Part shown: piece by piece, positions 10,276-48,278 of the stretch
Layout of the letters: each line of letters starts with the position of its first letter
Numbering within the stretch: position 1 is the stretch's first letter
Assembly: GCF_004765785.1 (NCBI RefSeq)
Contig: NZ_SBIT01000009.1
Coordinates: 62,001-126,000 of the forward strand
Direction: 5' to 3'
DNA: 64,000 nucleotides
From: Halorussus ruber
Lineage (GTDB): Archaea; Halobacteriota; Halobacteria; Halobacteriales; Haladaptataceae
The notes under the pieces: model-generated
The model's database searches: none
Told to the model about the DNA's origin: nothing
Seen by the model: only the letters and a program-made list of their open reading frames with translations
Made by a program: the position numbers and the translations under genes

Positions 10276-11013
10276 GCTGAAATCTATCAGAGGGCGAGGT
10301 CACCGGGCGATTCGACGCCGCGCCCGGCCTCCTCGTGCGGTTCGACCGCCAGCGGGCGGGCGGCTTGCCCGGAATTTTCCGCGAGACGGCCTTTGTTATA
10401 CGTCGTCTGTCGGGGGATAGTCCGCGCCGGACGCTCGGCGTCGTCGCCGCTTAATCGCCGACAGTTCCGGCTTAGGCCGGTGGTTGGCGGCAGCAGGCGA
10501 CGCAGAGAGAACGAAACAGTCGGAATCGTCGCCGGAGCGAGCGGGAGGGAAGCGGGAAATCGCCAGTCAAAGAGCAATTAAAACCTTTTCTAAGTAAATG
10601 ATATTTTATTCTTAGGAAATGTTTTCAATTCCAAAGCGAGTGTCTCGCCGGAACCGGCGAAACGCTCGCGGCCGAGAAAGGTGACGGCCGGTCGGTCAGA
10701 CCACGGGGTGCGCTCGGCTGAAAATCCACCGGGATGCGCTCGACTGAGCAACCGCGAGCGAACGCTCGACGGAACAGACCAACAGCGAACGCTCGGCTAA
10801 CCAACCGCCGGGTGGGATGAAGGGGCCGCCCGGTCGCGCAACGCTTGGTCGCTGAGGGACCGCTATCCGCGACGGGCGGTGCTGAGAGGAGCGGATATGT
10901 CCCTCAGCGACCGCGACCGGGCGGGGGGCTTCAAAAAGACACCACGACACCGATTCTGCTGTTCGCGGGGTAGTTCTGCTTTCCCGCGCTGGCAGTTCAC
11001 CAAAACACGCGAA
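10276..11013. other. Intergenic region: AT tract, iterons and F3 repeat
   Basis: This 738-base gap contains an AT-rich tract (10575-10632), then four loosely repeated 25-30-bp units built on gcgaacgctcggctNaNcaacc (about 10705-10810), then the palindromic F3 copy (10811-10936). The first 40 bases are the upstream region of the PKD gene. No coding frame here has normal composition. Confidence 0.6.
10811..10936 (+). repeat. F3 palindromic repeat, copy a
   Basis: It starts ggtgggatgaagggg and ends gggggcttc. GGTCGCTGAGGGAC (10847-10860) pairs perfectly with 10899-10912. Inside it, TATCCGC (10864-10870) pairs with GCGGATA (10891-10897). A third outer arm, CCGCCCGGTCGCG (10826-10838), pairs with 10912-10924. 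Other copies are at 11630, 34681, 41327 and 47797. Confidence 0.8.
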
Positions 11014-11502: not shown

Positions 11503-11931
11503 GGCGAGATTCACGGACTCCGGGGAAATAACAGTTTGCCGAGGTTTTTCTCGAAGGACCCTGACTACGCAGGTAGAGATAGAAAGCCCTCGGGCTTGGG
11601 ACCGCAGGAACCAACAGGACAGTCGAGGTTTTGAAAGCCCTCGCGCGGTTCGCGGTCGCTCAGCGACATATCGCGGACCTCTCCGCACAGCCCGGTCCGC
11701 GATAGGGGTCGCTGAGACGACCACGGGCCGAACGGCCCGCGAACCCCGCTCGCCCTTTCATTCCACCAGGACCGCACTTGATCCACCGGCCGAAATCTGT
11801 CGGCTGGTCCACCGGTCGAGTTCGGTCGGCGGTCAGGCCACGCTGTCACTCGACTTCCGAAGAAAGTCCCACGTCACTCGCTCGCACCCCTGCAAAAAGC
11901 ACTTCACCGGTCGCTCTGTACGCTCGGAGCG
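11503..11931. other. Intergenic region between divergent genes: F3 repeat and iterons
   Basis: This 429-base gap holds the F3 copy (11630-11765), preceded by a short gaaagccctcgggctt hairpin (11581-11597). It is followed by two or three units carrying tccaccgg (reverse complement of the GGTGGA iteron) at about 11766-11835. The last 40 bases lead into the nucleoside phosphorylase gene. Confidence 0.6.
11630..11765 (-). repeat. F3 palindromic repeat, copy b (inverted)
   Basis: It reads gaaagccc ... ccctttcattcc on the plus strand, the reverse of copy a. The central stem TATCGCGGACC (11669-11679) pairs perfectly with GGTCCGCGATA (11694-11704). Outer arms are ggtcgctcagcgac and gtcgctgagacgacc, with one bulged base. 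Confidence 0.8.
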
Positions 11932-24690: not shown

Positions 24691-24740
24691 CCTGGCGGAC
24701 TGAAAGGGCGACCGCGAACCGCGCGAGGACTTTCGAAACC
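24691..24740 (+). repeat. F3 repeat, short copy lacking the centre
   Basis: It contains only the two ends of F3: ctggcggactgaaaggg and gcgaaccgcgcgagg-ctttc, joined with the palindromic middle missing. It is preceded by iteron-like sequence (ctcggtggaccagccga). It looks like a deletion derivative of a full copy such as 41327-41465. Confidence 0.65.
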
Positions 24741-25303: not shown

Positions 25304-25459
25304 ATTCGGGACGACGGAGGCGACGAGCAAAAGCGATGCGGTGACGGGAGCAATACAATTATTTTCTTACAATGGTTTTATATTTCTTTAGGGAGTAAAG
25401 AGATTTCTTCAACCGGCTCACAGTTCCCGAAGCGATTTCGAACTCGTCCGGTAGCGAAT

Positions 25460-25571
25460 CGTTCCCGGGCGGAATCGTTCCCGGGCGGAATCGTTCCCGG
25501 GCGGAATCGTTCCCGGGCGGAATCGTTCCCGGGCGGAATCGTTCCCGGGCGGAATCGTTCCCGGGCGGAAT
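25460..25571 (-). repeat. 16-bp tandem repeat, 7 perfect units
   Basis: Seven identical units of cgttcccgggcggaat run head to tail, starting at 25460, 25476, 25492, 25508, 25524, 25540 and 25556. An eighth partial, mutated unit (cgttaccgg) overlaps the stop codon of the gene on the minus strand (25574-26170). Each unit contains TTCC-cgggc-GGAA, so single strands could form small hairpins. There are no spacers, so it is not a CRISPR. Confidence 0.95.
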
Positions 25572-25573
25572 CG

Positions 25574-26170
25574 TTACCGGACGAGCATGTATCCCGCCGC
25601 CGCGACGGTGGCGATGACGACGAGCGCGCCGCCCAGCACGGCCGCGCTGTCCGAGAGCGTGGCCGACCCGGCGGCGACCACCAGCGCGAGGAGGCCGAGC
25701 GCGGCAATCGGGGCGTTCTCGCGGAGGGCGACCTCCGGCAGGTCGAACCCGGCGGCCTCGTCCGCTTCCTCGTCGCTCCCGTCAGAGTCGTCGGCGCGGT
25801 TCGGCGGGGCCGCGAGCGTGGCGTCCACGTCCACCGCGTCCTCGCGCTCCTCGGGTTCCACGATGGAGACCGAGACGTAGTCGGTCTCCGCGCCGTGGCC
25901 GGTGACGATTTTGAGTCGGCCCTCGACCGGGCGCGGCCCGTCGCCGATTTCGACGCTGACCTGCCGGGTCGAGTCGGCGTCCACGAAGTGGTTGTTCGCG
26001 GGGATGGACGCGACCTGCGAGAGCGCGTCGTCCAGATGCAGGTGGACGTGGACCGGCGCGTCGCCGTTGTGGAGCAGTACCGGGAACGACTCGGTCGCCT
26101 CGAACGACGTAGCGGTCGCTATGTCGTGGAGCCGGTCGGAGTTGAGACGGACTGGGAGACTCTCTGGCAC
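25574..26170 (-). CDS. Hypothetical protein with C-terminal membrane helices
   Basis: This 198-aa protein uses a GTG start (MPESLPVRLN). Residues 1-110 look like a beta-sandwich (LLHNGDAPVHVHLHLDD, then DYVSVSIVEPEE), similar in character to domains that present an outer or inner surface strand. An acidic linker (about 110-150) follows, then two hydrophobic helices at the carboxy end separated by a very short turn. The stop codon is fused to the 16-bp tandem repeat at 25460-25571. Function is unknown. It may resemble haloarchaeal DUF75xx membrane proteins, but I cannot name the family. Confidence 0.8.
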   Translation of the reverse strand: MPESLPVRLNSDRLHDIATATSFEATESFPVLLHNGDAPVHVHLHLDDALSQVASIPANNHFVDADSTRQVSVEIGDGPRPVEGRLKIVTGHGAETDYVSVSIVEPEEREDAVDVDATLAAPPNRADDSDGSDEEADEAAGFDLPEVALRENAPIAALGLLALVVAAGSATLSDSAAVLGGALVVIATVAAAGYMLVR

Positions 26171-33797: not shown

Positions 33798-34016
33798 GCG
33801 AACTCGTCTTGGGACAGACACGCCTTTGTTATTGAGTCGATACCCCCACTCGTTCCGGACGCCCCCGCTACGTTCCGCGTTACCGCAACCGAAATCGAAC
33901 GTTGCCGAGTTCTCGACGTCGCGCCGTCCCGCGATTCCCCGCGCACCGCCCCGCGACTCTCCTCGTGCCCGTGCGCAGTCGATAAATCTACTTGCGTCCG
34001 ACACCGACTCGGACCT

Positions 34017-34613
34017 ATGAGCGTCACCGACGTGACGGACCTTCACGAGGAGTTCGACGGCGAGCGCCTCCCGCCCGGCCAGCGCAAGACGAGCAAGTTC
34101 CCGGTCCTCTCGAAGAGCGGCACGCCGGACTGGAACCCCGAGACGTGGGAGTTCACGGTCTCGGGCGCGGTCGAGGAGGAACTGTCCTTCTCGTGGGAGG
34201 AGTTTCAGGACCTCCCGAGCGAGACCCAGAATCAGGACTTCCACTGCGTGACGGGCTGGAGCAAGTTCGACTGCGAGTTCACGGGCGTCACCTTCCCCGA
34301 CCTCGCGGAGATGGCGGGCGTGAAAGACGACGCGGTTCACGTCATGTTCTCGGCGCTCGACGGCTACACGACGAATCTCCCGCTGGAAGATTGCATGCGC
34401 GAGGAGGTCCTCTTGACCTACGAGTTCGACGGCGAGGCCCTTCCGGAGGAACACGGCGGCCCCCTGCGGGTCGTGACGCCGCACAAGTACGCTTATAAAG
34501 GAGCGAAGTGGGTTGACGGCGTGGAGTTCCTGACGGAGGAGGAGCGCGGCTACTGGGAGAAGCGCGGCTACTCGAACACGGCGAATCCGTGGAACGAGGA
34601 GCGATACAGTTAG
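34017..34613 (+). CDS. Sulfite-oxidase-like molybdopterin enzyme
   Basis: This 198-aa protein is of the short sulfite-oxidase/YuiH type, which binds molybdenum cofactor through a cysteine. Key segments are FHCVTGWSKFDCEFTGVTF (with the cofactor Cys in HCVTGWS), VMFSALDGYTTNLPLEDCM, and GGPLRVVTPHKYAYKGAKWV near the end. There is no Tat signal, so it is probably cytoplasmic. The substrate is unknown; members of this family reduce sulfoxides or N-oxides. The ATG at 34017 follows an AT-poor region with a gataaat element about 30 bases upstream. Confidence 0.9.
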   Translation: MSVTDVTDLHEEFDGERLPPGQRKTSKFPVLSKSGTPDWNPETWEFTVSGAVEEELSFSWEEFQDLPSETQNQDFHCVTGWSKFDCEFTGVTFPDLAEMAGVKDDAVHVMFSALDGYTTNLPLEDCMREEVLLTYEFDGEALPEEHGGPLRVVTPHKYAYKGAKWVDGVEFLTEEERGYWEKRGYSNTANPWNEERYS

Positions 34614-34680
34614 TGAATTTCTGTCTTTCGGGGAGTCGAAGCAGATAGCGTCGTGAGTAGGAGAATCGCAGTATCTTTTT

Positions 34681-34810
34681 AGAAAGCCCCCGGTTCGCTC
34701 GCGGTCGCTCAGCGACATATCTGACGCGCGCAGTTCTGCGCGCGTCAGATAGAGGTCGGCTGAGACGACCACGGCCTTCGGCCGCGAGCGACCGGTCCCT
34801 TTCAGTCCAC
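34681..34810 (-). repeat. F3 palindromic repeat, copy c (inverted)
   Basis: The central stem is a 16-bp perfect palindrome: TATCTGACGCGCGCAG (34718-34733) pairs with 34736-34751 around only two bases. Outer arms ggtcgctcagcgac and gtcggctgagacgacc surround it. The ends are gaaagccccc and ggtccctttcagtcc. Confidence 0.8.
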
Positions 34811-34867
34811 CCAGACAGTCGGGTGCATTACCGGGCTTCTGACGGTGAGAGGAGCCACCGAGCGTCG

Positions 34868-34974
34868 GCCTCGGGCCTCCCCAGCCTCCTCTCACTCCCT
34901 GCGGTCGTTCGGTCGTCCCTCGCGCGGTTCGGCGCGGCCACAGGAGGCCGCGCCAGCACGCGCCGACAAACGAG
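34868..34974 (+). repeat. F2 palindromic repeat, copy b
   Basis: A cctccccagcctcctc leader and cggtcgtccctcgcgcg phrase precede the hairpin GGCGCGGCC (34931-34939) with GGCCGCGCC (34946-34954), and then an agcacgcgccg tail. Confidence 0.65.
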
Positions 34975-35101
34975 TTCGAGACAGCGATTCGAACCGACGA
35001 GTTTTCGCCGTTTTGAGGAGTCCGACGACGGTGCCCGAACCCGACAGGCGTCACGAGTAATTCAGTTAGACTAAAGGCTCCCCACTCCTGAGTTCGACTG
35101 A

Positions 35102-36472
35102 ATGGAGTCTCCGCCCCGCGACGGACAGGTGTCGGCCGAACCGACCGGCTCCGCCCTCGTGAGCCGGGCTTGCAAGCTACCCGACTGCGACCCCCGACCC
35201 TTCCTCGCCGGGCGGGACGCGCCCCGAATCTACTGGACCAGCCCGTACGGTCCCGAGTTCGCAGGCGGCGGCACCGCGGCCAGAATCACGGCCGAGGGAG
35301 CCGACAGGTTCGACTCGGTCGGCGAGGCCGCAGACGAGTTGTTCGACGGGATGGACTACGACGGGCCGGACGCGGCCCGGCCCCGACTGTTCGGCGGCTT
35401 CTCGTTCCACGCCGACCACGACCCGGCCCCGCCGTGGCAGAGCTTCGGGACCGGCGAGTTCATCCTGCCCCGGACCCAGTTGACTCGCGCCGACGGCGAG
35501 ACGTGGCTGACCGTCTCGGCCCGCGACGCGCCCGGCGAGGCCGTCGAGGCCGAACTTTCCGAGGTCCGCGAGGCCCTCGCCGAGGTCCCCGAGCGAGAGC
35601 GCGCCGACTCGCCCCGCGCTGGCCCGCCCGGAGCTGACCCGCCCGGCGTCGTGGCGACGAACCCGACCACGACCCGCGAGGAGTGGGCCGAGCAGGTCAG
35701 GGCCGCGGTCGAGCGAATCGACGCTGGCGACCTCCAGAAGGTCACGCTGGCCCAAGCCCTCGCGGTCGAGTTGGCCGACGAGGTCTCGATGCCCGACGTG
35801 CTGGCCCGCCTCGGCGAGTCGTACCCCGACTGCTTCCGGTTCTGCTTCGAGCCGACCCCCGAGGCCGCCTTCTTCGGCGCGACGCCCGAGCGACTCGCCA
35901 CGCTCCGGGGTCGGACCGTCGAAACCGACGCGCTCGCAGGCTCTGTCGGCCGCGGTGATACTCCGGAGGAGGACGCCGAACTGGAGAAAAGCATCGAGGA
36001 AAGCGAGAAGATGGCCCACGAACACGGTCTCGTGGTCGATACCATCCGCGAGCAGTTGGCTCCTCTCTCCGCGGCGGTCCGGGTCGAGGACCGCCGCGTT
36101 CGGAAACTCGCCACCATCCAGCACCTCTGGACCCCCATCGAGGCCGACCTCCAGTCGTCGGGCCACGTCCTCTCTATCGTGGAAGCACTCCACCCGACCC
36201 CCGCGGTCGGCGGCCTCCCGCCCGAGAAAGCTCTCCAGACCATCCGCGAGACCGAGGCCTTCGACCGCGGCTGGTACGCCGCCCCGGTCGGCTGGTTCGA
36301 CGCCGAGGGCGACGGCACCTTCGCGGTCGGCATTCGCTCGGCGGTCACGAGCGGAAAATCCGCCACGCTGTTCGCCGGGAACGGCATCGTCGGCGACAGC
36401 GACCCCGACGAGGAGTACGAGGAGGTACAGCTCAAGTACCTGCCGATTCTGGACGAACTGGAAGATGAGTGA
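35102..36472 (+). CDS. menF: Isochorismate synthase
   Basis: This 456-aa chorismate-using enzyme makes isochorismate for menaquinone. It is related to anthranilate and salicylate synthases. Conserved segments include FGGFSFH (residues about 97-103), KVTLAQALAVEL, CFRFCFEPTPEAAFFGATPERL, ETDALAGSVGRGDTPEEDAEL with the Mg2+-binding glutamates, and TIQHLWTPIEADL. HPTPAVGGLP and WYAAPVGWFDAEGDGTFAVGIRSA follow near the end. It opens the men cluster, and its last 8 bases overlap menD, so the two are coupled. Confidence 0.96.
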   Translation: MESPPRDGQVSAEPTGSALVSRACKLPDCDPRPFLAGRDAPRIYWTSPYGPEFAGGGTAARITAEGADRFDSVGEAADELFDGMDYDGPDAARPRLFGGFSFHADHDPAPPWQSFGTGEFILPRTQLTRADGETWLTVSARDAPGEAVEAELSEVREALAEVPERERADSPRAGPPGADPPGVVATNPTTTREEWAEQVRAAVERIDAGDLQKVTLAQALAVELADEVSMPDVLARLGESYPDCFRFCFEPTPEAAFFGATPERLATLRGRTVETDALAGSVGRGDTPEEDAELEKSIEESEKMAHEHGLVVDTIREQLAPLSAAVRVEDRRVRKLATIQHLWTPIEADLQSSGHVLSIVEALHPTPAVGGLPPEKALQTIRETEAFDRGWYAAPVGWFDAEGDGTFAVGIRSAVTSGKSATLFAGNGIVGDSDPDEEYEEVQLKYLPILDELEDE

Positions 36473-38282
36473 CGAAGCCGACCCCTTCTCTGACCCCTCG
36501 GCCGCCCCGAACCGCAACACCCTCTGGGCGCGGGCGCTGGTCTCGGAACTCGACGCCGCGGGAATCGACGCCGTCTGCATCGCCCCCGGCAGTCGCTCGA
36601 CGCCCCTGACGGTCGCGTTCGCTCAGCATCCCGAAATCGAGGTCTTCTCGCACTTGGACGAGCGTTCCGCGGCGTTCTTCGCCTTGGGTCGAGCCAAGCG
36701 CACCGGCAAACCGACCCCGCTGGTCTGCACCTCGGGCACCGCGGCGGCGAACTTCCACCCCGCGGTCATCGAGGCAAATCAGGCCCGCGTCCCGATGCTC
36801 GTCCTGACGGCCGACCGGCCGCCGGAACTGCGCGACTCGGGCGCGAACCAGACTATCGACCAGCAGAAGCTCTACGGCGACGCGGTTCGGTGGTACAAGG
36901 ACCTGCCCGAACCAGAGGCCGACGGACGAAAGTTGCGCTCGCTCCGGACCACGGCGGCCCGCGCGGTGAGCGAGTCCACCGGCACCCCGCCGGGGCCGGT
37001 CCACCTCAACGTCCCCTTCCGCAAGCCCCTCGAACCGGTCGAGGTCCCCGGCGACGTGCCCGAGGAGTTCGCCGACGAGGCTCCGCTCGGGGCCGAGGGG
37101 CGCAATTCTGCCTTCGTCAGCACTTCGCAGGGCCGCCCCGAACTGGACGACGCCGAGATTCGGCGCGTCGGGCAGGTTCTCGAAGACGCCGACCGGGGCC
37201 TCATCGTCGCCGGTCCGGCGGACGCCCCGGACTCGGACCGAACCCCGGCGCTCGACCGCGGGGCACTCGCCGACCTCGCCGAGGCGACCGGGTTCCCCGT
37301 CCTCGCCGACCCCCTGTCGGGACACCGATTCGGTCACGAGAGCGAAGTTCCGATACTCGGGGGCTACGACGGCTACCTCGACGCAGTCGCCGACTCGTGG
37401 CCCGACCCCGAGGTCGTCGTTCGCTTCGGCGCGTCGCCGACCTCGAAGGTCCTCCGCCGGTATCTGGAAGCGAGCGACGCCCGGCAGTTCCTCGTGGACC
37501 CCGCGGGCGGGTGGCGCGAGGCGACGTTTACCGCGACAGACCTGCTGGCGGCCGACCCGACGCGGTTCGCCCGGAAACTGGCCGAAACGACCGATTCGGC
37601 CGCGGCCGAATCGGCCGAGAGCGAATCGTGGCGCGCACGCTTCGCCGAGGCCGAGCGCGACTACTGGAGTCTGGTCGAGTCGGCGCGCGACGAGCGCCTC
37701 TTCGAGGGCGGCGTCCTCTCGGCAGTCGCGGAAGACGCCCCCGACCCGGCCACCGTGATGGTCTCGAACAGCATGCCGGTCCGCGATTTGGACCGCTTCG
37801 GTGCGCCGCGGTCCGCGGACATCTCGGTGCTGGGCAACCGGGGCGCGAGCGGCATCGACGGCATCACCAGCACGGGACTCGGCGCGGGGAGCGCAACCGA
37901 CGACCCGCTCGTCATCGTGACCGGCGACTTGGCCTACTACCACGACATGAACGGCCTGCTCGCCGTCGCGCGGTGCGGCGTGGACGCGACCATCGTGGAA
38001 ATCAACAACGACGGCGGCGGCATCTTCCACATGCTCCCCATCGAGGAGTTCGACCCGCCGTTCACCGAGCAGTTCCGGACGCCCCACGGCCTCGACTACG
38101 AACCGACCGGTGACCTCTACGGCCTCGACTTCGAGCGCGTCGGGGAACTGGCGGACTTCCGGTCGGCCTTCCGCGAATCGGTCGCCAGCGAGGGGACGCA
38201 GGTAATTGAGGTCACGACCGACGCCAAGGAGAGCCACCGGTTCCGCGAGGAAGTGGCAGAACGAATACGGACGCAAGTCTAA
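36465..38282 (+). CDS. menD: SEPHCHC synthase MenD
   Basis: This 605-aa thiamine-diphosphate enzyme adds 2-oxoglutarate to isochorismate in the second menaquinone step. The ATG at 36465 overlaps menF by 8 bases. Conserved features: CIAPGSRSTPL near the start, HLDERSAAFFALGRAK with the cofactor-activating Glu, VCTSGTAAANFHPAV, and GDLAYYHDMNGLL, which begins the Mg2+/ThDP motif (GDL...NN) ending at EINNDGGGIF. The length is a little above bacterial MenD because of acidic insertions (for example around 395-415). The following gene is AT-richer and not clearly part of the operon. Confidence 0.96.
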   Translation: MSDEADPFSDPSAAPNRNTLWARALVSELDAAGIDAVCIAPGSRSTPLTVAFAQHPEIEVFSHLDERSAAFFALGRAKRTGKPTPLVCTSGTAAANFHPAVIEANQARVPMLVLTADRPPELRDSGANQTIDQQKLYGDAVRWYKDLPEPEADGRKLRSLRTTAARAVSESTGTPPGPVHLNVPFRKPLEPVEVPGDVPEEFADEAPLGAEGRNSAFVSTSQGRPELDDAEIRRVGQVLEDADRGLIVAGPADAPDSDRTPALDRGALADLAEATGFPVLADPLSGHRFGHESEVPILGGYDGYLDAVADSWPDPEVVVRFGASPTSKVLRRYLEASDARQFLVDPAGGWREATFTATDLLAADPTRFARKLAETTDSAAAESAESESWRARFAEAERDYWSLVESARDERLFEGGVLSAVAEDAPDPATVMVSNSMPVRDLDRFGAPRSADISVLGNRGASGIDGITSTGLGAGSATDDPLVIVTGDLAYYHDMNGLLAVARCGVDATIVEINNDGGGIFHMLPIEEFDPPFTEQFRTPHGLDYEPTGDLYGLDFERVGELADFRSAFRESVASEGTQVIEVTTDAKESHRFREEVAERIRTQV

Positions 38283-38303
38283 TACTCCTCCTGTACAAAC
38301 ACG

Positions 38304-38316
38304 TTTATTATCTAAT
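38304..38316 (+). promoter_or_regulatory. TATA region for the membrane gene inside the men cluster
   Basis: The AT-rich tract tttattatctaat lies 17-29 bases before the ATG at 38333, so this gene probably has its own promoter between menD and the rest. Confidence 0.5.
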
Positions 38317-38332
38317 AATACGGGGCAGGAAC

Positions 38333-39295
38333 ATGATTTGGAATAGAGTGACACGTCGGCACTTCGCTGTCTGGTTCGGGATGTTCGGAGCGATACAGAG
38401 TGCAGTGTTAAGTGTGTATTTCTTTCTCTGGGATTTCCAAGTTGGCGTCCCGGGATATGCCGCAGTAACAGAAACTGTATCAGGAGTCGATGTCCTTGCC
38501 GGGGATTTGTCTGGGATAACGCTCTCCTATTTTTTCCTCGGTCTTATCGGGGCTACCATAAGCGTCGTCGCCGCTTATAGCGTCTCGACCCGGAGGTATG
38601 CGTTACTCGAATACCTCTTGGTCGCAGTCGGCGTCGTCGCGGCGTGGCAGTGGTACGTCGGTGATTTACTCGGACAACTACTCTCTACCGTTGTTCTCCC
38701 GATTTTTCTATCGGTCGTACTCCACGTCTCCAAACGGTCGAAGCCAGAACAACCGGATGGCCGACTGTCGAGGACCACCGTCCTAATAGTTGCACTCGTC
38801 GCAGTCGTATGTAGCGTGTCGAGTACGGGTATCGTCGCTCTCGATGCTCCTCGGAATCAGCCTTCGAAGACAGTCGAATCGAGTCCAGTTACTGAACGTC
38901 TTGCAGTCGAAAGCGTGATCGGCGAGGTGACAGGCGACCACGAAAAGCAAATTAGCTCTCTTACGTTCACGGTTTCGCCGAATGGTGAGAGTACAAACAT
39001 ATATGGCGTGGAGATTAAATACGTAGGTGATGAAACCGAGAAAACCTTCGAATCGAGAACGGACGACGTGAATACGTCCACGGAACCTGTATTCGCGCTT
39101 CGGTCAGCGGACTCGAAAATCGTGTCTCCCCAAGAGAGCGCCACATTCACGCTAAACATCACCGCGATTCGAGGAGCAATCCTCAGACCGGGTAACAGCG
39201 TTAAAATAGTTATACTTACTGCGGAAGACGCGAAGACCGTTTTTTGGCTCGACGTTCCGGAGTCGCTCTCCGGAAAGAAGGCCGAACTCCTGTGA
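38333..39295 (+). CDS. Membrane protein with archaellin-like outer tail
   Basis: This 320-aa protein has four or five hydrophobic helices in residues 1-175 and then an extracellular-looking domain. The last 110 residues read like an archaellin or pilin carboxy end: SVIGEVTGDHEKQISSLTFT, VSPQESATFTLNITAIRG, then VKIVILTAEDAKTVFWLDVP. Codon use and GC are clearly lower than in men genes, which suggests later acquisition. The ATG has AGGA-like bases (gcaggaac) just before it. No enzymatic motif is seen. It sits between menD and the hypothetical gene 39550 and is probably not a menaquinone enzyme. Confidence 0.7.
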   Translation: MIWNRVTRRHFAVWFGMFGAIQSAVLSVYFFLWDFQVGVPGYAAVTETVSGVDVLAGDLSGITLSYFFLGLIGATISVVAAYSVSTRRYALLEYLLVAVGVVAAWQWYVGDLLGQLLSTVVLPIFLSVVLHVSKRSKPEQPDGRLSRTTVLIVALVAVVCSVSSTGIVALDAPRNQPSKTVESSPVTERLAVESVIGEVTGDHEKQISSLTFTVSPNGESTNIYGVEIKYVGDETEKTFESRTDDVNTSTEPVFALRSADSKIVSPQESATFTLNITAIRGAILRPGNSVKIVILTAEDAKTVFWLDVPESLSGKKAELL

Positions 39296-39549
39296 CTACA
39301 GTTGGTCGAGACTGCCACCACCGAACGAGATGTCTCGTTTGTTGAACAGCGAGTAGGCGGCAGTACCGCGAGCAGAATCGTCCTACGTCGCCGACGAACT
39401 CGGCGAGTAGCGGGCTTCGGAAATAATTAGTTGCCTTTAAATTTTTATCTATATCATAGATGGTTATATATCGTTGTTTCGTCAAAAGAGTCGATATCGG
39501 CTACCAACTGCAAGATTGAAATGAATCCAGCCTATATTTCCGAATATAA

Positions 39550-39924
39550 ATGTCAGAAAACTCTTCGGAAGCCCTGGCCGAGTTCCTGAAAGCTCGCGTC
39601 GGCGACCACCTGCGGAGCGTCATCTTCTACGACGACGAGGGCGGCGAAGTGGTGTACGTCCGCGACGACGTGGCCGACCAGTACACCGACGAGGACGTGG
39701 CCGAGGTCGTCCGCGACGTGCGACTGGAGGCCGTGGACAAACCCCACCAAGAGAGCCTCTACACTCACGGTTCGCTCGAATGCACGCTCCGGTCGTTCGG
39801 CGACGCCGTGGAGTTGCACTTCCCGCACGACGAGACCTGCGGCACCGCCGTCGCGCTCGACAGCGAAGTGTTCCCGATGCACAACACCTTCGTCGAGCGC
39901 TGTCTGGACGCGATGGAGGAGTAG
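39550..39924 (+). CDS. Small conserved haloarchaeal protein
   Basis: This 124-aa acidic protein has an alpha/beta look: LAEFLKARVGDHLRSVIFYD, GGEVVYVRDDVADQYTDEDV, then SLECTLRSFGDAVELHFPHD and TGC-like CGTAVALDSEVFPM. It has two Cys and several His residues but no clear metal motif. It resembles haloarchaeal proteins of DUF75xx type that are often found beside signalling or redox genes; I cannot name it. It is convergent with the aminotransferase gene, with 11 bases between the stops. Confidence 0.8.
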   Translation: MSENSSEALAEFLKARVGDHLRSVIFYDDEGGEVVYVRDDVADQYTDEDVAEVVRDVRLEAVDKPHQESLYTHGSLECTLRSFGDAVELHFPHDETCGTAVALDSEVFPMHNTFVERCLDAMEE

Positions 39925-39935
39925 GCCGACACTTC

Positions 39936-41138
39936 CTATTCGGTCTCTGCCCGAACCATCGCCTCGATTCGGTCGAGTCCCTCCTCGATGCGGTCGAGGC
40001 TGTTGGCGAAGCTGATTCGGAGGTAGCCCTCGCCAGCGTCGCCGAATCCGTCGCCCGGCGCGGTCACGACGCCGTACTCCGAGAGGAGCCGTTTCGCTAT
40101 CTCGAAGCTCCCGCCGGGCAGGTCGCTCACGTCGAGGAAGGCGTAGAAGGCCCCGTCCGGCCGCGGGCAGGAGACCACCGGCATCTCGGCGACGCGCTCG
40201 ACCACGAAGTCCCGGCGCTCCTCGAAGGCGGCCTTCATCTCGGCGACCGGCTCTTGGGGCCCGGTCAGCGCGGCCAGCGCGGCCTGCTGGCTCACGGCCG
40301 AGGTGCAGGCGGTCGTACTCTCGCCGATGCTGGTGACCGCGTCCACCACCTCCTCCGGCCCGGCGAGCCAGCCGAGTCGCCAGCCAGTCATGGAGTAGGT
40401 CTTCGAGCAGGAGTCGATGGTCAGGACGTTCTCGGGCGAATCGACGTAGGACGCCGCGCCCCGGAAGTCGTCGTCGTAGGTCAGGCGGCCGTAGACCTCG
40501 TCGGCGACGACGTAGGCGTCGTTGGCCGCCGCGGCGTCCGCGACTTCGGCGACCGCCTCCTCGTCGTAGACCTGCCCGGTCGGATTGGAGGGCGAGGTCA
40601 AAATTACGGCGGCGGTCTCCTCGCCGATTTCGCCCGCCACGCGCTCGGCGTCGAGGTCGAATCCGGAGTCGGCGGGCAGCGGGACCTCGACCGGCGTCGC
40701 GCCCGCCAACTGGACCTGGTTCACGTAGTTCGGCCACGCCGGAGTGGGAACCACGACCTCGTCGCCCGGCCCGGCCAGCGCCATCATCGACAGCGAAAGC
40801 GCCTCCATCGCGCCGTTCTTGACCGTAATCTGCTCGGGGTCGTACTCGACGCCGCTCTCGCGCGCCATCGTCTCCGAGATGGCCTCGCGGAGCGGCGGGA
40901 TGCCCGCGTTCTCGGTGTAGCTGGTCGCGCCCTCGTGGGCCGCCTCGGCCGCGGCGTCGATGACGTGTTCGGGCGTACCGAAGTCGGGTTCGCCGACTTC
41001 GAGGCGCACGAGGTCGCTGTCGGCCGTCTGTCGCTCGCGCTCGGCGAGGCCGAACATCACGCGAATCTTCGAGCGTTCGAGGCTCCGGGTCCGGTCGGCG
41101 AGGCGCGCGGCGGCCTCGCGCTGGCTCGGGTCGGTCAT
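39936..41138 (-). CDS. Class I/II aminotransferase (PLP-dependent)
   Basis: This 400-aa fold-type I PLP enzyme of the aspartate aminotransferase family shows the expected motifs. LEVGEPDFGTPEHV is at the start, followed by YTENAGIPPLREAI and LTSPSNPTGQVYDEE with the PLP-contacting Asn. ADEVYGRLTYDDDF carries the pyridine-ring Asp, and SCSKTYSMTGWRLGWLAGP the Schiff-base Lys. The substrate is probably an aspartate, tyrosine or other aromatic amino acid; motifs do not separate them. It is transcribed opposite to the men genes, with upstream iterons and an F3 repeat in the 41139-41564 gap. Confidence 0.93.
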   Translation of the reverse strand: MTDPSQREAAARLADRTRSLERSKIRVMFGLAERERQTADSDLVRLEVGEPDFGTPEHVIDAAAEAAHEGATSYTENAGIPPLREAISETMARESGVEYDPEQITVKNGAMEALSLSMMALAGPGDEVVVPTPAWPNYVNQVQLAGATPVEVPLPADSGFDLDAERVAGEIGEETAAVILTSPSNPTGQVYDEEAVAEVADAAAANDAYVVADEVYGRLTYDDDFRGAASYVDSPENVLTIDSCSKTYSMTGWRLGWLAGPEEVVDAVTSIGESTTACTSAVSQQAALAALTGPQEPVAEMKAAFEERRDFVVERVAEMPVVSCPRPDGAFYAFLDVSDLPGGSFEIAKRLLSEYGVVTAPGDGFGDAGEGYLRISFANSLDRIEEGLDRIEAMVRAETE

Positions 41139-41564
41139 GGCCTACGTCACGGAACCGCGGGTGAAGTAAGTTCGCTCCTCGGAAATGGAGACCAGCGAAC
41201 GCCGACCGCGACCCGCGGGTCGCGGTCGGTGGAACTTTCCACGCGGTTTCGGCCAGTGGCACCTTCCATCGGAACGTGCTCGGTGGATCAATCCACGAGT
41301 TTCGGCCGGTGGGACGTTCACTTCCCCTGGCGGACTGAAAGGGCGAGCGCGGTTCGCGGCCGGAGGCCGTGGTCGTCTCCGGCGGCCCTATTCGCGGGCC
41401 GGGCGGTGTGGAGAGGCCCGCGGATATCCGGCGGAGCGACCGCGAACCGCGCGAGGGCTTTCGAGGACGAAGAAACGACGGTCTCACCTCCGGCAGTATC
41501 GTCACTTCAATCTCCTAGAAGCCAACAAGGAATCTTTTTCCTCGCACCGGCCCCACGCCGACAC
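41139..41564. other. Intergenic region with GGTGGA iterons and F3 repeat
   Basis: This 426-base gap contains four units of about 27 bases around GGTGGA-N3-TCCAC (41220-41335), joined to F3 copy e (41327-41465). The last 100 bases lead to menB. No gene is apparent. Confidence 0.65.
41327..41465 (+). repeat. F3 palindromic repeat, copy e
   Basis: It starts ctggcggactgaaaggg and ends gcgcgagggctttc. The central stem TATTCGCGGGCC (41389-41400) pairs with GGCCCGCGGATA (41415-41426), with one G-T pair. It is immediately downstream of GGTGGA-type iterons. Confidence 0.8.
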
Positions 41565-42458
41565 ATGGTATCCGAGATTTTCGACCCCGAGGAGTGGGAG
41601 CAAGCGGGACCCGACTTCGACGACATCACCTACCACCGTGCGGTCGAGTCGGGCACCGTGCGCATCGCGTTCGACCGGCCCGAGGTCCGCAACGCCTTCC
41701 GGCCGAAGACCGTTGACGAACTCTACGACGCGCTCGACCACGCCAAGCGCCAGACCGACGTGGGGTGCGTCCTGCTGACCGGTAACGGTCCCTCGCCGAA
41801 GGACGGCGGGTGGGCGTTCTGCTCGGGCGGCGACCAGACCGTCCGCGGCGACGAGGGCTACGAGTACCGCGGCGAGGACGGCCAGACGGACAAGGCCGCG
41901 AAGGGCGGCCGCCTCCACATCCTCGAAGTCCAGCGCCTGATTCGCCACATCCCGAAGCCGGTCCTCTGCGTCGTGCCCGGGTGGGCGGTCGGCGGCGGCC
42001 ACAGCCTCCACGTCGTCTGCGACATGACCATCGCCAGCGAGGAGCACGCCGTCTTCAAGCAGACCGACCCGGACGTCGCCTCCTTCGACGGCGGGTTCGG
42101 CTCTGCCTACCTCGCCAAGCAGGTCGGCCAGAAGAAGGCCCGCGAAATCTTCTTCCTCGGGAAGAACTACGACGCCGAGGAGGCCGCCGACATGGGCATG
42201 GTCAACGAGGTCGTCCCCCACGAGGACCTCGAAGAAGTCGCGCTCGAATGGGCCGAGGAGATGAACGAGAAGAGTCCGACCGCGATGCGGATGCTCAAGT
42301 ACGCCTTCAACATGACCGACGACGGCATGGTCGGCCAGCAGGTGTTCGCCGGGGAAGCGACCCGTCTCGCCTACATGACCGACGAAGCCCAAGAGGGCCG
42401 GGACGCCTTCGTCGAGGGTCGAGACCCCGAGTTCGATAAGTTCGACTGGCACTACTAA
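41565..42458 (+). CDS. menB: 1,4-Dihydroxy-2-naphthoyl-CoA synthase
   Basis: This 297-aa crotonase-family enzyme closes the naphthoquinone ring from succinylbenzoyl-CoA. The ATG at 41565 (MVSEIFDPEEWEQ) is chosen over the long upstream frame. Motifs: VRIAFDRPEVRNAFRPKTVD, WAFCSGGDQTVRG with the oxyanion glycines, PGWAVGGGHSLHVVCDMTIA with the second oxyanion strand, and QTDPDVASFDGGFGSAYLA, the MenB-specific loop with the active Asp. The carboxy end YNKFDWHY-like (FDKFDWHY) is usual. Its stop codon begins the F1 hairpin array. Confidence 0.96.
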   Translation: MVSEIFDPEEWEQAGPDFDDITYHRAVESGTVRIAFDRPEVRNAFRPKTVDELYDALDHAKRQTDVGCVLLTGNGPSPKDGGWAFCSGGDQTVRGDEGYEYRGEDGQTDKAAKGGRLHILEVQRLIRHIPKPVLCVVPGWAVGGGHSLHVVCDMTIASEEHAVFKQTDPDVASFDGGFGSAYLAKQVGQKKAREIFFLGKNYDAEEAADMGMVNEVVPHEDLEEVALEWAEEMNEKSPTAMRMLKYAFNMTDDGMVGQQVFAGEATRLAYMTDEAQEGRDAFVEGRDPEFDKFDWHY

Positions 42459-42672
42459 GACGACCTTTTTATTGCGAGCGCAGTCGCCGTGGGCGACTGC
42501 GCTCGATAAAAAGCTCGACCAAAAACACGGTCGTTCGAAAATCGGAGATTTTCGTGATCACGAGAGAGCTTTGCTCTCTCGGACGACGTCACCCCCTCAA
42601 GCGCGCCGGAGGCGCGCTTTCGAGGGATTCCTTGGTCCGCTCGCTCACGTTCGTTCGCTCGCGGTACAGTCG
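42456..42672 (+). repeat. F1 multi-hairpin repeat, copy b
   Basis: It starts at the menB stop (TAA), then a T-run (cctttttatt), then five stem-loops: 42475-42488 with 42492-42505 (14 bp), 42516-42520 with 42529-42533, 42536-42543 with 42547-42554, 42561-42569 with 42573-42581, and 42600-42607 with 42611-42618. The main loops are three bases. The tail ctcgctcacgttcgttcgct is shared with copy c. Confidence 0.9.
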
Positions 42673-42956
42673 CTAGCCCGTCCCGCACGGCACCGCGCCG
42701 CACCGCAACCGAGTCGGGTGGTCGGCGGAGCGCGAGAAGCGTTTATATAATTGTTGTTGTTTCTTTAGACAATGTTATTATTGCTTATAGACACTATTTC
42801 ATTGCTTTTAGAATCCGAGTTAGCTTGAACCGTCACGTAGCTCCGTCCGCGACCGCTGGCTCGCCAGCGGTCGCTGGGCACGCTCGGCCAAAGCTATCCC
42901 GGCCGAAATCGCTCCTGCCCGCCTATTTAAGGCGTTCAGGCCCAAAGCCGCAACCG
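42459..42956. other. Intergenic region: F1 repeat, AT island, TATA
   Basis: Besides the F1 copy, this 498-base gap carries an AT-rich tract (42735-42825) with ttgttgttgtttctttag, and a short palindrome ccgctggctcgccagcgg (42850-42867). A TATA box for the next gene lies near 42923. No gene was seen. Confidence 0.6.
42923..42932 (+). promoter_or_regulatory. TATA box for the thioredoxin-reductase-like gene
   Basis: The sequence ctatttaagg is 25-34 bases before the ATG at 42957. Confidence 0.6.
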
Positions 42957-43973
42957 ATGAGCGAGACGCACGAGTACGAGGTTGCCGTCGTCGGCGGGGG
43001 TCCCGCCGGACTGACGGCCGCGCTGTACACCACGCGACTGGGCCACGACACCGTGGTCGTGAACCGAGGCGGCGGGCGGGCCGCCATGATGGCCGACACC
43101 CACAACGTCATCGGCGTGACCGAGGAGGTCTCCGGCGTGGAGTTCCTCCAGACCGCCCGCGAGCAGATACAGGAGTACGGGGCCGACTACGTCCGGGGCT
43201 ACATCGAGGACGCCGAGCGGCGCGACGACGGCCGGTTCCACCTCCACGGCGGCGAGCGCGACTTCGTCGCCGACCGCGTGGTGCTGGCGACCGGGTTCAC
43301 CGACGTGCAACCCGGCCCGCCCCTCCCGCCGACCGGGCGCGGCCTCCACTACTGTCTGCACTGCGACGCCTACATGTTCGTGGACCAGCCGGTCTACGTG
43401 ATGGGGACCGGCGAGGCCGCGGCCCACGTCGCCATGATTCTGCTCAACTTCACCGACGACGTGGACCTGCTGACCCGCGGCGACGACCCCGAGTGGAGCG
43501 AGGAGACCGACCGCCAGCTCCGCGCCCACCCGGTCGATATCGTCCACGAGGAGATTTCCGGCATGGAGAAGGACGACGACGGCTGGCTCGCGGGCTTCGA
43601 GTTCGAGGACGGGAGCTTCCGCGAGTACCGCGGCGGCTTCCCGATGTACGGCTCGGACTACAACGCCGAACTGGTCGAGCAGTTAGACTGCGAGCGCAAC
43701 GACGACGGAACCGTCGTCGTGGACGACGCCTTCGAGACCACCACCGACGGCGTCTACGCGGTCGGCGACCTCACCCCCGGCCACAAGCAGATTCCGGTCG
43801 CCATGGGCGAGGGCGCGAACGCTGGCATCGACATCCACTACGGGCTTCGGGAGTTCCCCAAGTCCGTCGAGGAGCTCGAAGCCGAGGGCGAGGTCTCGGC
43901 CGAGCAGGTGCCGAGCGTCTCCGACGACCTCAGGGAGGCGGCCCACGAGTTCCGCGCGGAAGGCGACGACTGA
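42957..43973 (+). CDS. Thioredoxin-reductase-like FAD protein
   Basis: This 338-aa FAD/NAD(P)-dependent oxidoreductase has the Rossmann motif VVGGGPAGLTAALY (residues about 11-24). It has the redox-active pair in YCLHCDAYMF (CxxC), and VLATGF and VYAVGDLTPGHKQIP, the FAD-binding GD motif. The second nucleotide-binding segment (VMGTGEAAAHVAMI) has a GxGxAA variant. It lies among the men genes but is not a known menaquinone enzyme. It may reduce a thioredoxin-like partner, or work as a geranylgeranyl-reductase-like or other quinone-linked enzyme. The frame is certain; the substrate is not. Confidence 0.92.
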   Translation: MSETHEYEVAVVGGGPAGLTAALYTTRLGHDTVVVNRGGGRAAMMADTHNVIGVTEEVSGVEFLQTAREQIQEYGADYVRGYIEDAERRDDGRFHLHGGERDFVADRVVLATGFTDVQPGPPLPPTGRGLHYCLHCDAYMFVDQPVYVMGTGEAAAHVAMILLNFTDDVDLLTRGDDPEWSEETDRQLRAHPVDIVHEEISGMEKDDDGWLAGFEFEDGSFREYRGGFPMYGSDYNAELVEQLDCERNDDGTVVVDDAFETTTDGVYAVGDLTPGHKQIPVAMGEGANAGIDIHYGLREFPKSVEELEAEGEVSAEQVPSVSDDLREAAHEFRAEGDD

Positions 43974-44004
43974 GACTGCGCGGGAGAGGACGACTGAGAC
44001 TGCG
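43965..44004 (+). repeat. 16-bp direct repeat over a stop codon
   Basis: gacgactgagactgcg occurs at 43965-43980 and 43989-44004, 24 bases apart. The first copy contains the stop codon of the preceding gene. It is a small duplication. Confidence 0.7.
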
Positions 44005-44171
44005 AGAGAGAGCGCAACTGAAAGAGACGGATTTTTCCGTCCCGACTTTAAGTTGTTCTGGCGACAAGGAGTAGATACGAGCGAAAGCGGTTCTCCGGGG
44101 ACTCAAATTCTAACAGCTTTTGCTCTGGCGAAACCGCAGGGGCTATTGGCCAGTTCCCGTAAGTTCCGATA

Positions 44172-45113
44172 ATGAGCGACACGGCTACCGAACACTCCCG
44201 CCGCGAGGCGTGGCTGATGGCCGCCCGGCCTCACACCCTCCCGGCGGCCGCGGCACCGGTCATCGTCGGCGTGGGTCTCGCCGTCCACGAGGGTCTGTTC
44301 GCGCCGCTTCCGGCGCTGGCGGCCTTCGTCGGCGCGGCCCTCATCCAGATCGGCACAAACTTCGCCAACGACTACTACGACGCCGTGAAGGGCGTGGACA
44401 CCGACGAGCGCGAGGGGTTCACCCGCGTCACCCAGTCGGGACTCATCGCACCGGAGTCGGTCAAGCGAGCGATGTACGCCACCTTCGCGCTGGCGATACT
44501 GGTCGGCGTCTACCTCGTGTACGTCGGCGGCCTGCCGATTCTGGTCATCGGACTCGCCAGCGTGATTTCCGGCATCGCCTACGCGGGCGGTCCCTACCCC
44601 CTCGGCTCGCACGGCCTCGGCGACCTGTTCGTCTTCGTCTTCTTCGGCGTCGTCGCGGTCATGGGCACCTTCTACGTGCAGGCCGCCAGCGTACTCGCCG
44701 GAGCCTTCCCGATGGGGATTCCGGAGGGGACAGTCACGCTCGCGGCGTTCGCCGCCAGCCTCCCGGTCGCGGCCATCTCGACCAACATCCTCGTGGTGAA
44801 CAACGTCCGGGACCTCGAAACCGACCGCGAGGCGGGCAAGAAGACCCTCGCAGTTCTCGTCGGCTACCGGGCCAGCCGCGCCGAGTTCGTCGGCCTGCTG
44901 GCGCTCTCGTACGTCGTCCCGATTTGGTTCTGGCTGGCGCGAGGGTACTCCCCGGCGGTCCTCCTTCCCCTGCTCACGATTCCCTACGCGGCCGCCGTCG
45001 CCCGGACCGTCCTGACCGACGCCTCGGGCGAGGCGCTCAACCCCGCGCTGGAACAGACCGGAAAACTGCTGGCCGGGCACTCGGTGCTGTTCGCGCTCGG
45101 CCTCCTCGCGTGA
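44172..45113 (+). CDS. menA: 1,4-Dihydroxy-2-naphthoate polyprenyltransferase
   Basis: This 313-aa UbiA-family membrane protein with eight or nine helices attaches the isoprenoid chain to dihydroxynaphthoate, giving demethylmenaquinone. The signature NFANDYYDAVKGVDTDER (first Asp-rich motif with Mg2+-binding residues) is near residues 63-80, and the second Asp motif NNVRDLETDREAGKKTLAVL is at about 212-231. The opening RPHTLPAAAAPVIVG is typical of MenA. menC starts 31 bases later, so menA-menC-menE are probably co-transcribed. Confidence 0.95.
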   Translation: MSDTATEHSRREAWLMAARPHTLPAAAAPVIVGVGLAVHEGLFAPLPALAAFVGAALIQIGTNFANDYYDAVKGVDTDEREGFTRVTQSGLIAPESVKRAMYATFALAILVGVYLVYVGGLPILVIGLASVISGIAYAGGPYPLGSHGLGDLFVFVFFGVVAVMGTFYVQAASVLAGAFPMGIPEGTVTLAAFAASLPVAAISTNILVVNNVRDLETDREAGKKTLAVLVGYRASRAEFVGLLALSYVVPIWFWLARGYSPAVLLPLLTIPYAAAVARTVLTDASGEALNPALEQTGKLLAGHSVLFALGLLA

Positions 45114-45143
45114 GCACTCACCTAACCACCTACACCTGAAACC

Positions 45144-46181
45144 ATGAACGCCGAACTTCGTCCCTTCTCGCTCCCGCTCGCCGACCCCCTCGACACCGCT
45201 CGGGGGACCATCGAGCGCCGCGAGGGCTTCCTGTTCCGACTCGAATCCGAGCCCGAAGCAGTCGGCGTGGGCGAGGCCACCCCGCTCGCGGGCTGGACCG
45301 AATCGCAGGACGAGTGCCTGCAAGCCCTCGAAGACGCCGCGGACGCCATCGACGCCGACGGGGACCCCCAGTCCGCGCTCTCGAACCACAATTTAAAATA
45401 CACCCCGGCCGCGCGTCACGCGCTCGACCTCGCGCTCGCGGACCTGCGCGCGTCGCGTGCAGGCGACCCCCTCTATCGCTGGCTGGGAGCGACCGAGCGC
45501 GTCGAGAGCGTCCCGGTGAACGCGACGGTCGGCGACTCGGGCGTCGAGGAGACCGTCGCCGAGGCCGAGCGGGCCGCGGACGCTGGCTTCGAGTGCCTGA
45601 AAGTCAAGGTCGGAGCGCGGCCGCTCGCCGCGGACATCGAGCGAATCGAGGCGGTGGCCGACGCGCTCTCGGCGGTCGAACTCCGGGCCGACGCCAACGG
45701 GGCGTGGTCGCGCCAGCAGGCCCAGCAGTTTCTGGACGCGGTCGGGGACAGACTGGCCTACGTCGAGCAGCCCCTGCCCGCGACCGACCTCGGGGGTCTC
45801 GCCGCCCTCTCCGGCCCCATCGCGCTGGACGAGACGCTCGCCGAGGGCGAGTTCGAGGACGCCCTCGACGCGAATCCCAAGGCAGTCGTCCTGAAGCCGA
45901 TGGCGCTCGGCGGGCCTCGGAAGGCGGTCGAGCTCGCCGAGGAGGCCCGCGAGGAGGGAGTCTCGCCGGTCGTGACCACCACCATCGACGGCGCGGTGGC
46001 ACGGACCGCCGCGGTCCACGTCGCGGCCGCGATTCCGGACGTTCCGGCCTGCGGGTTAGCGACCGCGAAGATGCTGGAATCGGACCTCGGCCCGGACATC
46101 GCGCCGGTCGCGGACGGTCGGGCGGTGGTCCCGCAGGGCGAGGGCAACGGCACCGCGGACACGTGGAGGTACGATGACTGA
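45144..46181 (+). CDS. menC: o-Succinylbenzoate synthase
   Basis: This 345-aa enolase-superfamily enzyme dehydrates SHCHC to o-succinylbenzoate. Motifs include the KVK pair in GFECLKVKVGA (residues about 150-160), with the catalytic lysine, and three metal ligands in ELRADANGAW, YVEQPLPA and IALDETLA. The second catalytic lysine is in AVVLKPMALGG. The last eight bases overlap menE (ATG at 46174), so translation is coupled. The internal acid-rich segment is usual for halophiles. Confidence 0.95.
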   Translation: MNAELRPFSLPLADPLDTARGTIERREGFLFRLESEPEAVGVGEATPLAGWTESQDECLQALEDAADAIDADGDPQSALSNHNLKYTPAARHALDLALADLRASRAGDPLYRWLGATERVESVPVNATVGDSGVEETVAEAERAADAGFECLKVKVGARPLAADIERIEAVADALSAVELRADANGAWSRQQAQQFLDAVGDRLAYVEQPLPATDLGGLAALSGPIALDETLAEGEFEDALDANPKAVVLKPMALGGPRKAVELAEEAREEGVSPVVTTTIDGAVARTAAVHVAAAIPDVPACGLATAKMLESDLGPDIAPVADGRAVVPQGEGNGTADTWRYDD

Positions 46182-47727: not shown

Positions 47728-47796
47728 GTGACGCGGCCCGCCGGGTGCGCTGGGTGGGACTTTCCGCCAGTAGCGTGCTGGCAGACCAGTCGCCGC

Positions 47797-47914
47797 GGGT
47801 GGGATGAAGGGGCCGGTCGCTCGCGTACAGTTTAGTCGCTCGTCGGCCCTTATCCGTCGCAACTACGTCCGTCGGATATGCCGACGAGCGACCGCGAGCG
47901 ACCGGGGGCTTCAG
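47797..47914 (+). repeat. F3 palindromic repeat, copy d
   Basis: It starts gggtgggatgaagggg and ends gggggcttc. GTCGCTCGTCGG (47835-47846) pairs perfectly with 47881-47892. Inside, TATCCG (47851-47856) pairs with CGGATA (47873-47878). Confidence 0.75.
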
Positions 47915-48019
47915 AAGACCGCTCTCCAGTATGCTGAGTCGTTGCTGTTCTTCTGAAAGTCGAGATGAAGCTAGCTAGTGCCGAAGCCTAGGAGGACCGC
48001 ACCGCAACCGCGACCGCGA

Positions 48020-48122
48020 ACCTCACACCTCCTCAACCTCCTCGTTCGCTCCCTCCGGTCGCTCACTCGTCCCTCGCGCGACGATGGCGCGAGATGGACT
48101 CGCGCCAGCGCGCGCCGCCGCA
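48020..48122 (+). repeat. F2 palindromic repeat, copy c
   Basis: A cctcctcaacctcctcg leader and cactcgtccctcgcgcg phrase precede the hairpin TGGCGCGAG (48085-48093) with CTCGCGCCA (48099-48107), and then a gcgcgcgccg tail. Confidence 0.65.
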
Positions 48123-48278
48123 TCCGCAGACACAACTATTTACGTGTTAAGAAAATACTTCAGAACCTTAAACAATCAAATAAATTGCTATCGGGAGAAC
48201 CACCCCACGTGACGAACACCTCCGACACACACCGCCGTAGCCGCGAGATTTTAGCCCGAGAAGTGCGTAATTCCGGTC

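Follow-up and report, generated by a model that had tools for sequence, protein, structure and literature searches.

Here we report a family of long, intergenic DNA hairpins that extends from a single genomic region of Halorussus ruber across many haloarchaeal genera. In these elements a conserved foot (GAAAGCCC ... CTTTCA) and a conserved tail (GTCCRCC) bracket a long hairpin with a TAT...ATA core. The copies lie outside predicted genes, have no link to Y1 transposases and, at orthologous sites, are conserved more strongly than the spacers around them. We tentatively interpret the family as a REP-like dispersed palindrome that acts as DNA, probably as a binding or processing site for a putative protein, a reading that we hold to be close to evenly balanced.

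Copies in the analysed region

The region analysed, hereafter the window, is a stretch of 64,000 nucleotides from the host genome, which comprises 4.32 Mb in 31 contigs. An initial annotation of the window had listed five palindromes, at 10811, 11630, 34681, 41327 and 47797. All five are present and are matched by one covariance model, R1 (E 9.4e-18 to 2.9e-24), which was built from 66 copies, the five complete window copies or their duplicates being in this training set. A sixth, truncated copy (24701-24734) had been absent from the list. The features are the following:

34682..34804, plus strand: complete class A hairpin, ends GAAAGCCC...CCCTTTCA (R1 E 2.9e-24)
34718..34751, plus strand: variable central stem TATCTGACGCGCGCAG-TTCTGCGCGCGTCAGATA of the 34682 copy, from sequence and fold
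34805..34815, plus strand: conserved tail GTCCACCCAGA, directly 3' of the foot of the 34682 hairpin, kept in its own and other genera
34612..34681, plus strand: leader of the 34682 copy, weakly conserved among copies, from upstream-flank alignment; left limit approximate
11633..11760, plus strand: complete class A hairpin (R1 E 1.8e-23)
10818..10933, minus strand: complete class A hairpin with variant ends TGAAGCCCC/CCCCTTCATCCCACC (R1 E 2.9e-21)
41336..41462, minus strand: complete class A hairpin, followed by a short-repeat array (R1 E 3.7e-19)
47805..47913, minus strand: complete class A hairpin with variant ends (R1 E 9.4e-18)
24701..24734, minus strand: truncated 34-base form GAAAGTCCTCGCGCGGTTCGCGGTCGCCCTTTCA, its tip lost between TCGC repeats (weak R1 match, E 0.03)

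The ends described as common to the five palindromes are so only in part: three of the five are of the GAAAGCCC/CCCTTTCAGTCC type, the left GAAAGCCC being accompanied by a right end of CCCTTTCA(G/T)TCC, while the copies at 10818 and 47805 carry the variant TGAAGCCCC/GGCCCCTTCATCCCACC. The outer arm CTCAGCG, also given as common, is not constant. As DNA, the 34682 copy has a folding energy of -52.4 kcal/mol (z = -8.9); RNA folding gave a z of -9.4.

Copy number and distribution

The right-end motif CCYTTTCAKTCCRC occurs 116 times in the host genome and the reversed motif not once, about 40 further places match the 34661-34830 copy by BLAST, and the covariance model gives at least 150 matches. 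In other genomes of the genus the same model finds 100 matches in G074, 97 in G114, 88 in G041, 66 in G058 and 61 in G156, and few in G118 and G176 (10 each) and G136 and G017 (1 each). Across the order, the end motif is present in 65 of 195 genomes, and complete elements were found in Halosimplex, Halorussus, Haloarcula, Halonotius, Halomarina, Haloparvum, Natronomonas, Haladaptatus, Halovenus, Natronorubrum and others; the records with complete elements are all haloarchaeal among the matches listed. Within the Halonotius family, 64 of 170 genomes hold complete elements, the reversed-pattern control giving 0 in every row. Thirteen haloarchaeal plasmids have matches, and among phage records there was no match to the hairpin family. 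When named genomes were scanned for the minimal form by exact pattern, nothing was returned beyond the host, but a broader pattern did find copies. BLAST, motif and model matches throughout the host genome, together with the copies in other genera, thus bear out the annotation in treating the palindromes as a distinct dispersed element. The copies group by species: their tree has 25 label changes, where shuffling gives 46.9 on average and never fewer than 43.

Hairpin structure and covariation

Most hairpins are 104-131 bases long. In class A the foot is GAAAG/CTTTC; an outer stem comes next, then GGTCG/CGACC, where many copies have a bulged A, and a second variable helix leads to a core in which a stem stands between TAT and ATA; class B shares the class A foot and outer stem and differs in its centre (...GCTGCGCTCCTCG...GCGGTGCTTRCGTCG...). 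The tail, GTCCRCC(AGG), lies 3' of the hairpin in all genera sampled. Stem renewal had been proposed for the window copies, and its pattern is real, as 54 distinct central stems occur among 61 class A copies of the host; the mechanism would be the exchange of whole tips between copies.

The 66-row alignment contains 32 pairs, with 95.7% of cells paired and two-sided changes in 20 of the 32. Two-sided cells number 281, against 94 in shuffles, and structures slid along the alignment as a control pair at 34-44%. In 146 class A elements we counted 6096 Watson-Crick pairs, 11 isolated G.T and 38 A.C, whereas nine haloarchaeal tRNAs from the same loci, serving as a small control, gave 191 Watson-Crick pairs, 8 G.U and no A.C (199 pairs); wobble therefore reaches at most 0.6% on either strand of the hairpins and 4% in the nine tRNAs. 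Among close copies G.T is no commoner than A.C (38 G.T, 52 A.C). The plus-strand A.C excess (38:11) equals a G.U excess of 38:11 on the minus strand, still 0.6% of pairs, and becomes weaker under a stricter filter (p = 0.03); either the complementary strand may be the one that folds, or a mutational bias may be responsible.

This near-pure Watson-Crick covariation fits a structure at the DNA level, or block exchange of tips, better than it fits compensation in RNA, although the low wobble could alternatively be caused by stems fixed through strong sequence conservation. The suggestion that the structure is selected, as RNA or DNA, is supported by strong conservation at orthologous sites (below), with DNA favoured by the near absence of G.T pairs. 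The result also carries a caution, in that stem covariation is possible without RNA-level compensation if whole tips exchange.

Genomic placement and associated repeats

With genes called by a simple codon-score gene finder, all classified copies lie outside predicted genes, both in the host (97/97) and in other genomes (171/171). The gene pairs around them are 19% convergent, 23% divergent and 58% tandem, and all adjacent pairs at the same loci are 19/19/62%. A general role as terminator or promoter was rejected because the copies have no gene-orientation preference. Integron attC sites were also set aside, from the sequence and with no formal test, as the ends are not attC-like and the copies lie outside cassette arrays. 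No transposase is among the top recurrent protein clusters near copies, which are mostly housekeeping families.

Genome G191 has about 16 facing pairs of elements with a structured body between the two members, giving composites of 316-540 bp, and no outward pair was found within 400 bp. In these composites (L353-L368, L373-L387) each hairpin has a leader of about 72 bases on its outer side. The host genome has several inverted pairs too.

Nested within the family hairpin, or immediately 3' of it, are double-hairpin modules that may point either way; one example is GGAAGAC-AAACCGC-GTCTTCC with another hairpin after it. Their loop (AAACCGC) is conserved and their stems vary. They were seen in the tails of L053, L057, L113 and L038, at the central tips of L058, L099 and L101, in a side hairpin of L115 and at L391/L405, and a short GC-rich repeat flanks some of them. 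For the L391/L405 module, which has GCGG repeats at its flanks, G118 and G176 show an insertion polymorphism; this may be either an insertion with duplication or a deletion between repeats, which look the same. Such a GC/GCGG repeat was seen for the nested module only.

Several genera have a second structured intergenic repeat (CCTCCCCAGCC...TCCCTCGCGCG...GCACGCGCCG or a relative) next to hairpins or in between them, namely at 34876-34966 of the window, in the spacers of L296, L297 and L307, and in the bodies of L265, L275 and L353-L370; it is missing from the equivalent spacer of other congeners. In many host copies the tail is succeeded by an array of a unit of about 28 bases (GGTTGnTyCACCGAGCG...CGGTGG); in the window such arrays occupy 10700-10815, 11765-11850 and 41200-41330. 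At 25456-25583 a 16-base unit, GAATCGTTCCCGGGCG, is repeated in tandem.

Gain, loss and truncation

The most similar hairpins of the host (83-96% by alignment score) have leader and tail similarities mostly near the median, which indicates that the hairpin moves, or is exchanged, separately from its flanks. The spacer that holds the 34682 copy measures 32-160 bp in most congeners and lacks the hairpin, and in G114 it contains a different family member. In the close pair G118/G176 the hairpin is missing from two spacers in which the flanking sequence is kept; at one further site the whole block is missing, and at another there is a rearrangement. The unrelated flanks of like hairpins, together with presence and absence in these two congeners, imply that the hairpin behaves as a unit. 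These cases are old and could be losses, gain and loss being inseparable in them. Three congener comparisons with highly diverged flanks showed neither a clean target site for the hairpin nor a duplication of one, and a joined-flank BLAST for paralogous empty sites gave truncated copies and weak flank matches only. The repeated mobilisation that had been suggested for the palindromes holds in outline, given 1 to at least 150 copies within the genus, clustering by species, like hairpins in unrelated flanks and the presence/absence cases, with the reservation that these do not separate loss from gain.

Nearly all of the 20 truncated host copies join one of the left-arm TCGC repeats straight to the right-hand foot. 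Slippage from one TCGC repeat to another, past an extruded hairpin, would fit these joints.

Conservation in place

Evidence on conservation comes from six sites, five in one species pair and one in six species, picked for genomes that retain the element. At the five orthologous sites of G118 and G176, substitutions amount to 2.1% in the hairpin and 17.8% in the 70-base flanks (p = 8e-22), the flank figure stemming partly from one poorly aligned side. The remaining site is a class B element common to six species of another genus, between M20 and M32 peptidase genes. Here the difference is 0.9% in the hairpin, with an unchanged tail (equivalent to 34805..34815) in the six orthologues; it is 15-30% in the spacer, which has many indels, and 2.6-6.6% in the flanks 250-1000 bases away. 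With divergences of 0.9-2.1% in hairpins against 15-30% in flanking spacer, something must conserve the hairpin; such conservation in place would not be expected of a free selfish element. On inspection, no conserved promoter-like block was found within 120 bases on either side of the six orthologues. Closely similar class B elements occur at loci L435-L437 and L439-L443, in eight genomes of one genus, six of them being the orthologues at the M20/M32 site.

Search for a mobilising enzyme

The window encodes no transposase of the two families scanned, Y1 and TnpB, as the annotation had noted for transposases in general, and the same two families were searched for genome-wide. No Y1 transposase (PF01797) was matched in the Halorussus genomes G041, G058, G097, G114, G130 and G156, each with 28-97 model matches, and G060, G163 and G183, with 9-10 Y1 matches each, contain the family motif 0 times. 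At the Y1 loci of the host no family ends were found. Locus L009, the sole Y1 locus without a nearby TnpB call, was considered as a stand-alone RAYT candidate and dismissed, since a TnpB-like partner was present on reading and family ends were absent. A survey of TnpA-Y1 proteins reports the IS200 subclass as the only one in Archaea (PMC6006769). The proposal of a REP-associated TnpA or other HUH protein as the mobilising agent is accordingly unsupported as far as Y1 is concerned, with copy-rich genomes lacking Y1 and Y1-rich genomes lacking the motif (PMC6006769).

The host genome has 23 TnpB and 7 Y1 TnpA matches, so that most TnpB copies have no TnpA partner. The ends of its TnpB elements, AGAAAGCCCCG...CGGGGATGAATCC, have their first 8-9 bases in common with the family hairpin.

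Proposed mechanism and alternative explanations

In the reading that we prefer, the hairpin with its foot and tail, either single-stranded or extruded, would be recognised by a putative protein, host- or element-encoded and other than a Y1 transposase, and the conservation of the hairpin would be a consequence of this recognition. New copies would come from rare events of copying or transposition that place them in spacers. Exchanges between copies via the conserved segments, by recombination or conversion, could swap whole hairpin tips; because the tip is contiguous, such an exchange would replace both arms together and keep them complementary, so that stems could differ and yet pair perfectly. 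The remnants of 34, 28 and 19 bases would be left where replication slips from one TCGC repeat to another across the hairpin. It is possible, if doubtful, that the elements form a host-maintained class of archaeal DNA hairpin, with a spread like that of mobile repeats, under selection stronger than that on neighbouring coding sequence, and serving as the site of a putative hairpin-binding system for which chromosome organisation, replication or ssDNA processing are candidate roles.

A structured RNA, be it a small RNA or an mRNA-embedded element with SINE-like amplification in some lineages, would account for the strong covariation, the conserved junction nucleotides and frequent bulged A, the RNA fold (z -9.4), a conservation that exceeds the spacer level and the plus-strand A.C excess (38:11), which is a G.U excess on the minus strand. 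We consider it unlikely, as wobble stays at or below 0.6% on either strand against 4% in the tRNAs, Rfam has no family that matches over the elements in 13 loci or in window 34000-48500, and the copies show neither a preferred transcript orientation or preferred gene ends nor a conserved promoter-like block in the six orthologues. It is quite unlikely that the family is a MITE or fold-back element of a purely selfish kind, mobilised in trans and without host function: orthologous hairpins diverge about 8 times less than their flanks in G118/G176, and at the six-species site less than the flanks 250-1000 bases away; moreover, no parent transposase is found near copies, and no target duplication of the hairpin was seen. 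A copy number that ranges within the genus from 1 to at least 150, species clustering, facing but never outward pairs in G191, truncated copies and the nested-module insertion polymorphism are nevertheless traits that such an element would share.

Relatives of known haloarchaeal and bacterial repeats were weighed as well. Complete family copies occur in Halonotius, a relative of Haloquadratum, which would suit a place among short mobile repeats of the kind described from the latter. These repeats, SMR-A, resemble the family in their size (about 110 bp), inverted termini, high copy number and enigmatic mobiliser, and in having no target duplication, for the family as far as the congener comparisons reach (PMC3119063); they prefer IS605/PATE palindromes, however, and the family occupies ordinary spacers between ordinary genes, which renders this assignment decidedly improbable. 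Mobilisation as REP sequences by a RAYT/TnpA-REP or by an IS200/IS605 TnpA is very improbable, in spite of hairpins beside a short conserved foot, inverted pairs, intergenic placement and Y1 genes in the host genome, because Y1 is absent from the six copy-rich Halorussus genomes (28-97 copies), the host Y1 loci, L009 included, lack family ends, and archaeal TnpA-Y1 is of the IS200 subclass only (PMC6006769); conversely, G060, G163 and G183 have Y1 without the motif. Least credible of all, in our judgement, is a descent as PATEs, remnants of IS605-type transposon ends: what the host TnpB ends share with the hairpin is a short motif of 8-9 bases alone, no TnpB element is bounded by the hairpin at the loci inspected, and PATEs are without inverted ends.

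Comparison with known systems

The PATEs of Haloquadratum are likewise non-coding, palindromic and haloarchaeal, and include repeat-mediated deletion remnants, but they have IS605-like ends without inverted termini, whereas the whole unit of the present family is one hairpin (PMC3119063); homology to IS605 ends amounts here to the 8-9 bases in common with TnpB right ends. SMR-A of Haloquadratum walsbyi is alike in its many copies of about 110 bp with inverted termini and no clear target duplication, and differs in targeting IS605/PATE palindromes; the comparison with HqIRS42/43/55 is one of descriptions (PMC3119063). A MITE would carry the terminal inverted repeats of a known transposon; the ends here are inverted (GAAAG/CTTTC), no transposase recurs among the top protein clusters near copies, and the genome-wide searches covered the Y1 and TnpB families. 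The repetitive and double hairpin elements of mitochondria are shorter and share no core sequence with the family, and resemble it in their hairpins, tandem or nested modules, lack of an encoded enzyme and unexplained mobility (PMC2800124).

The family has much in common with the bacterial REP, REPIN and BIME sequences, which are also high-copy, intergenic and hairpin-forming, with lineage-specific subfamilies, frequent inverted pairs and mosaic clusters (PMC2817692, PMC3116915, PMC3733652). Bacterial REPs, however, measure 20-65 bases and carry GTAG/CGTC, whereas the present elements, at 110-130 bases, have a multi-part stem, a GAAAG foot, archaeal hosts and no RAYT. REP-like palindromes with a dedicated transposase have been described for bacteria, and for Archaea IS200-type TnpA only (PMC6006769). 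Inverted pairs and an intergenic, high-copy occurrence (97/97, 171/171, at least 150 copies) agree with a REP/RAYT system. Two of its defining features were tested and are lacking, namely a hairpin of about 21-65 nt with a 5' GTAG-type tetranucleotide (here 104-131 and GAAAG) and an associated TnpA-REP (Y1 HUH) gene (six copy-rich Halorussus genomes are without Y1), and for this reason we do not class the family with REP/RAYT, though it is REP-like in its working. It points to a putative protein that would recognise hairpin DNA, and its single-copy orthologues, less diverged than nearby coding sequence, make the question of whether such palindromes are selfish or useful testable in cultivable archaea. 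This haloarchaea-wide family attains the copy numbers of bacterial REPs without such a dedicated Y1 transposase.
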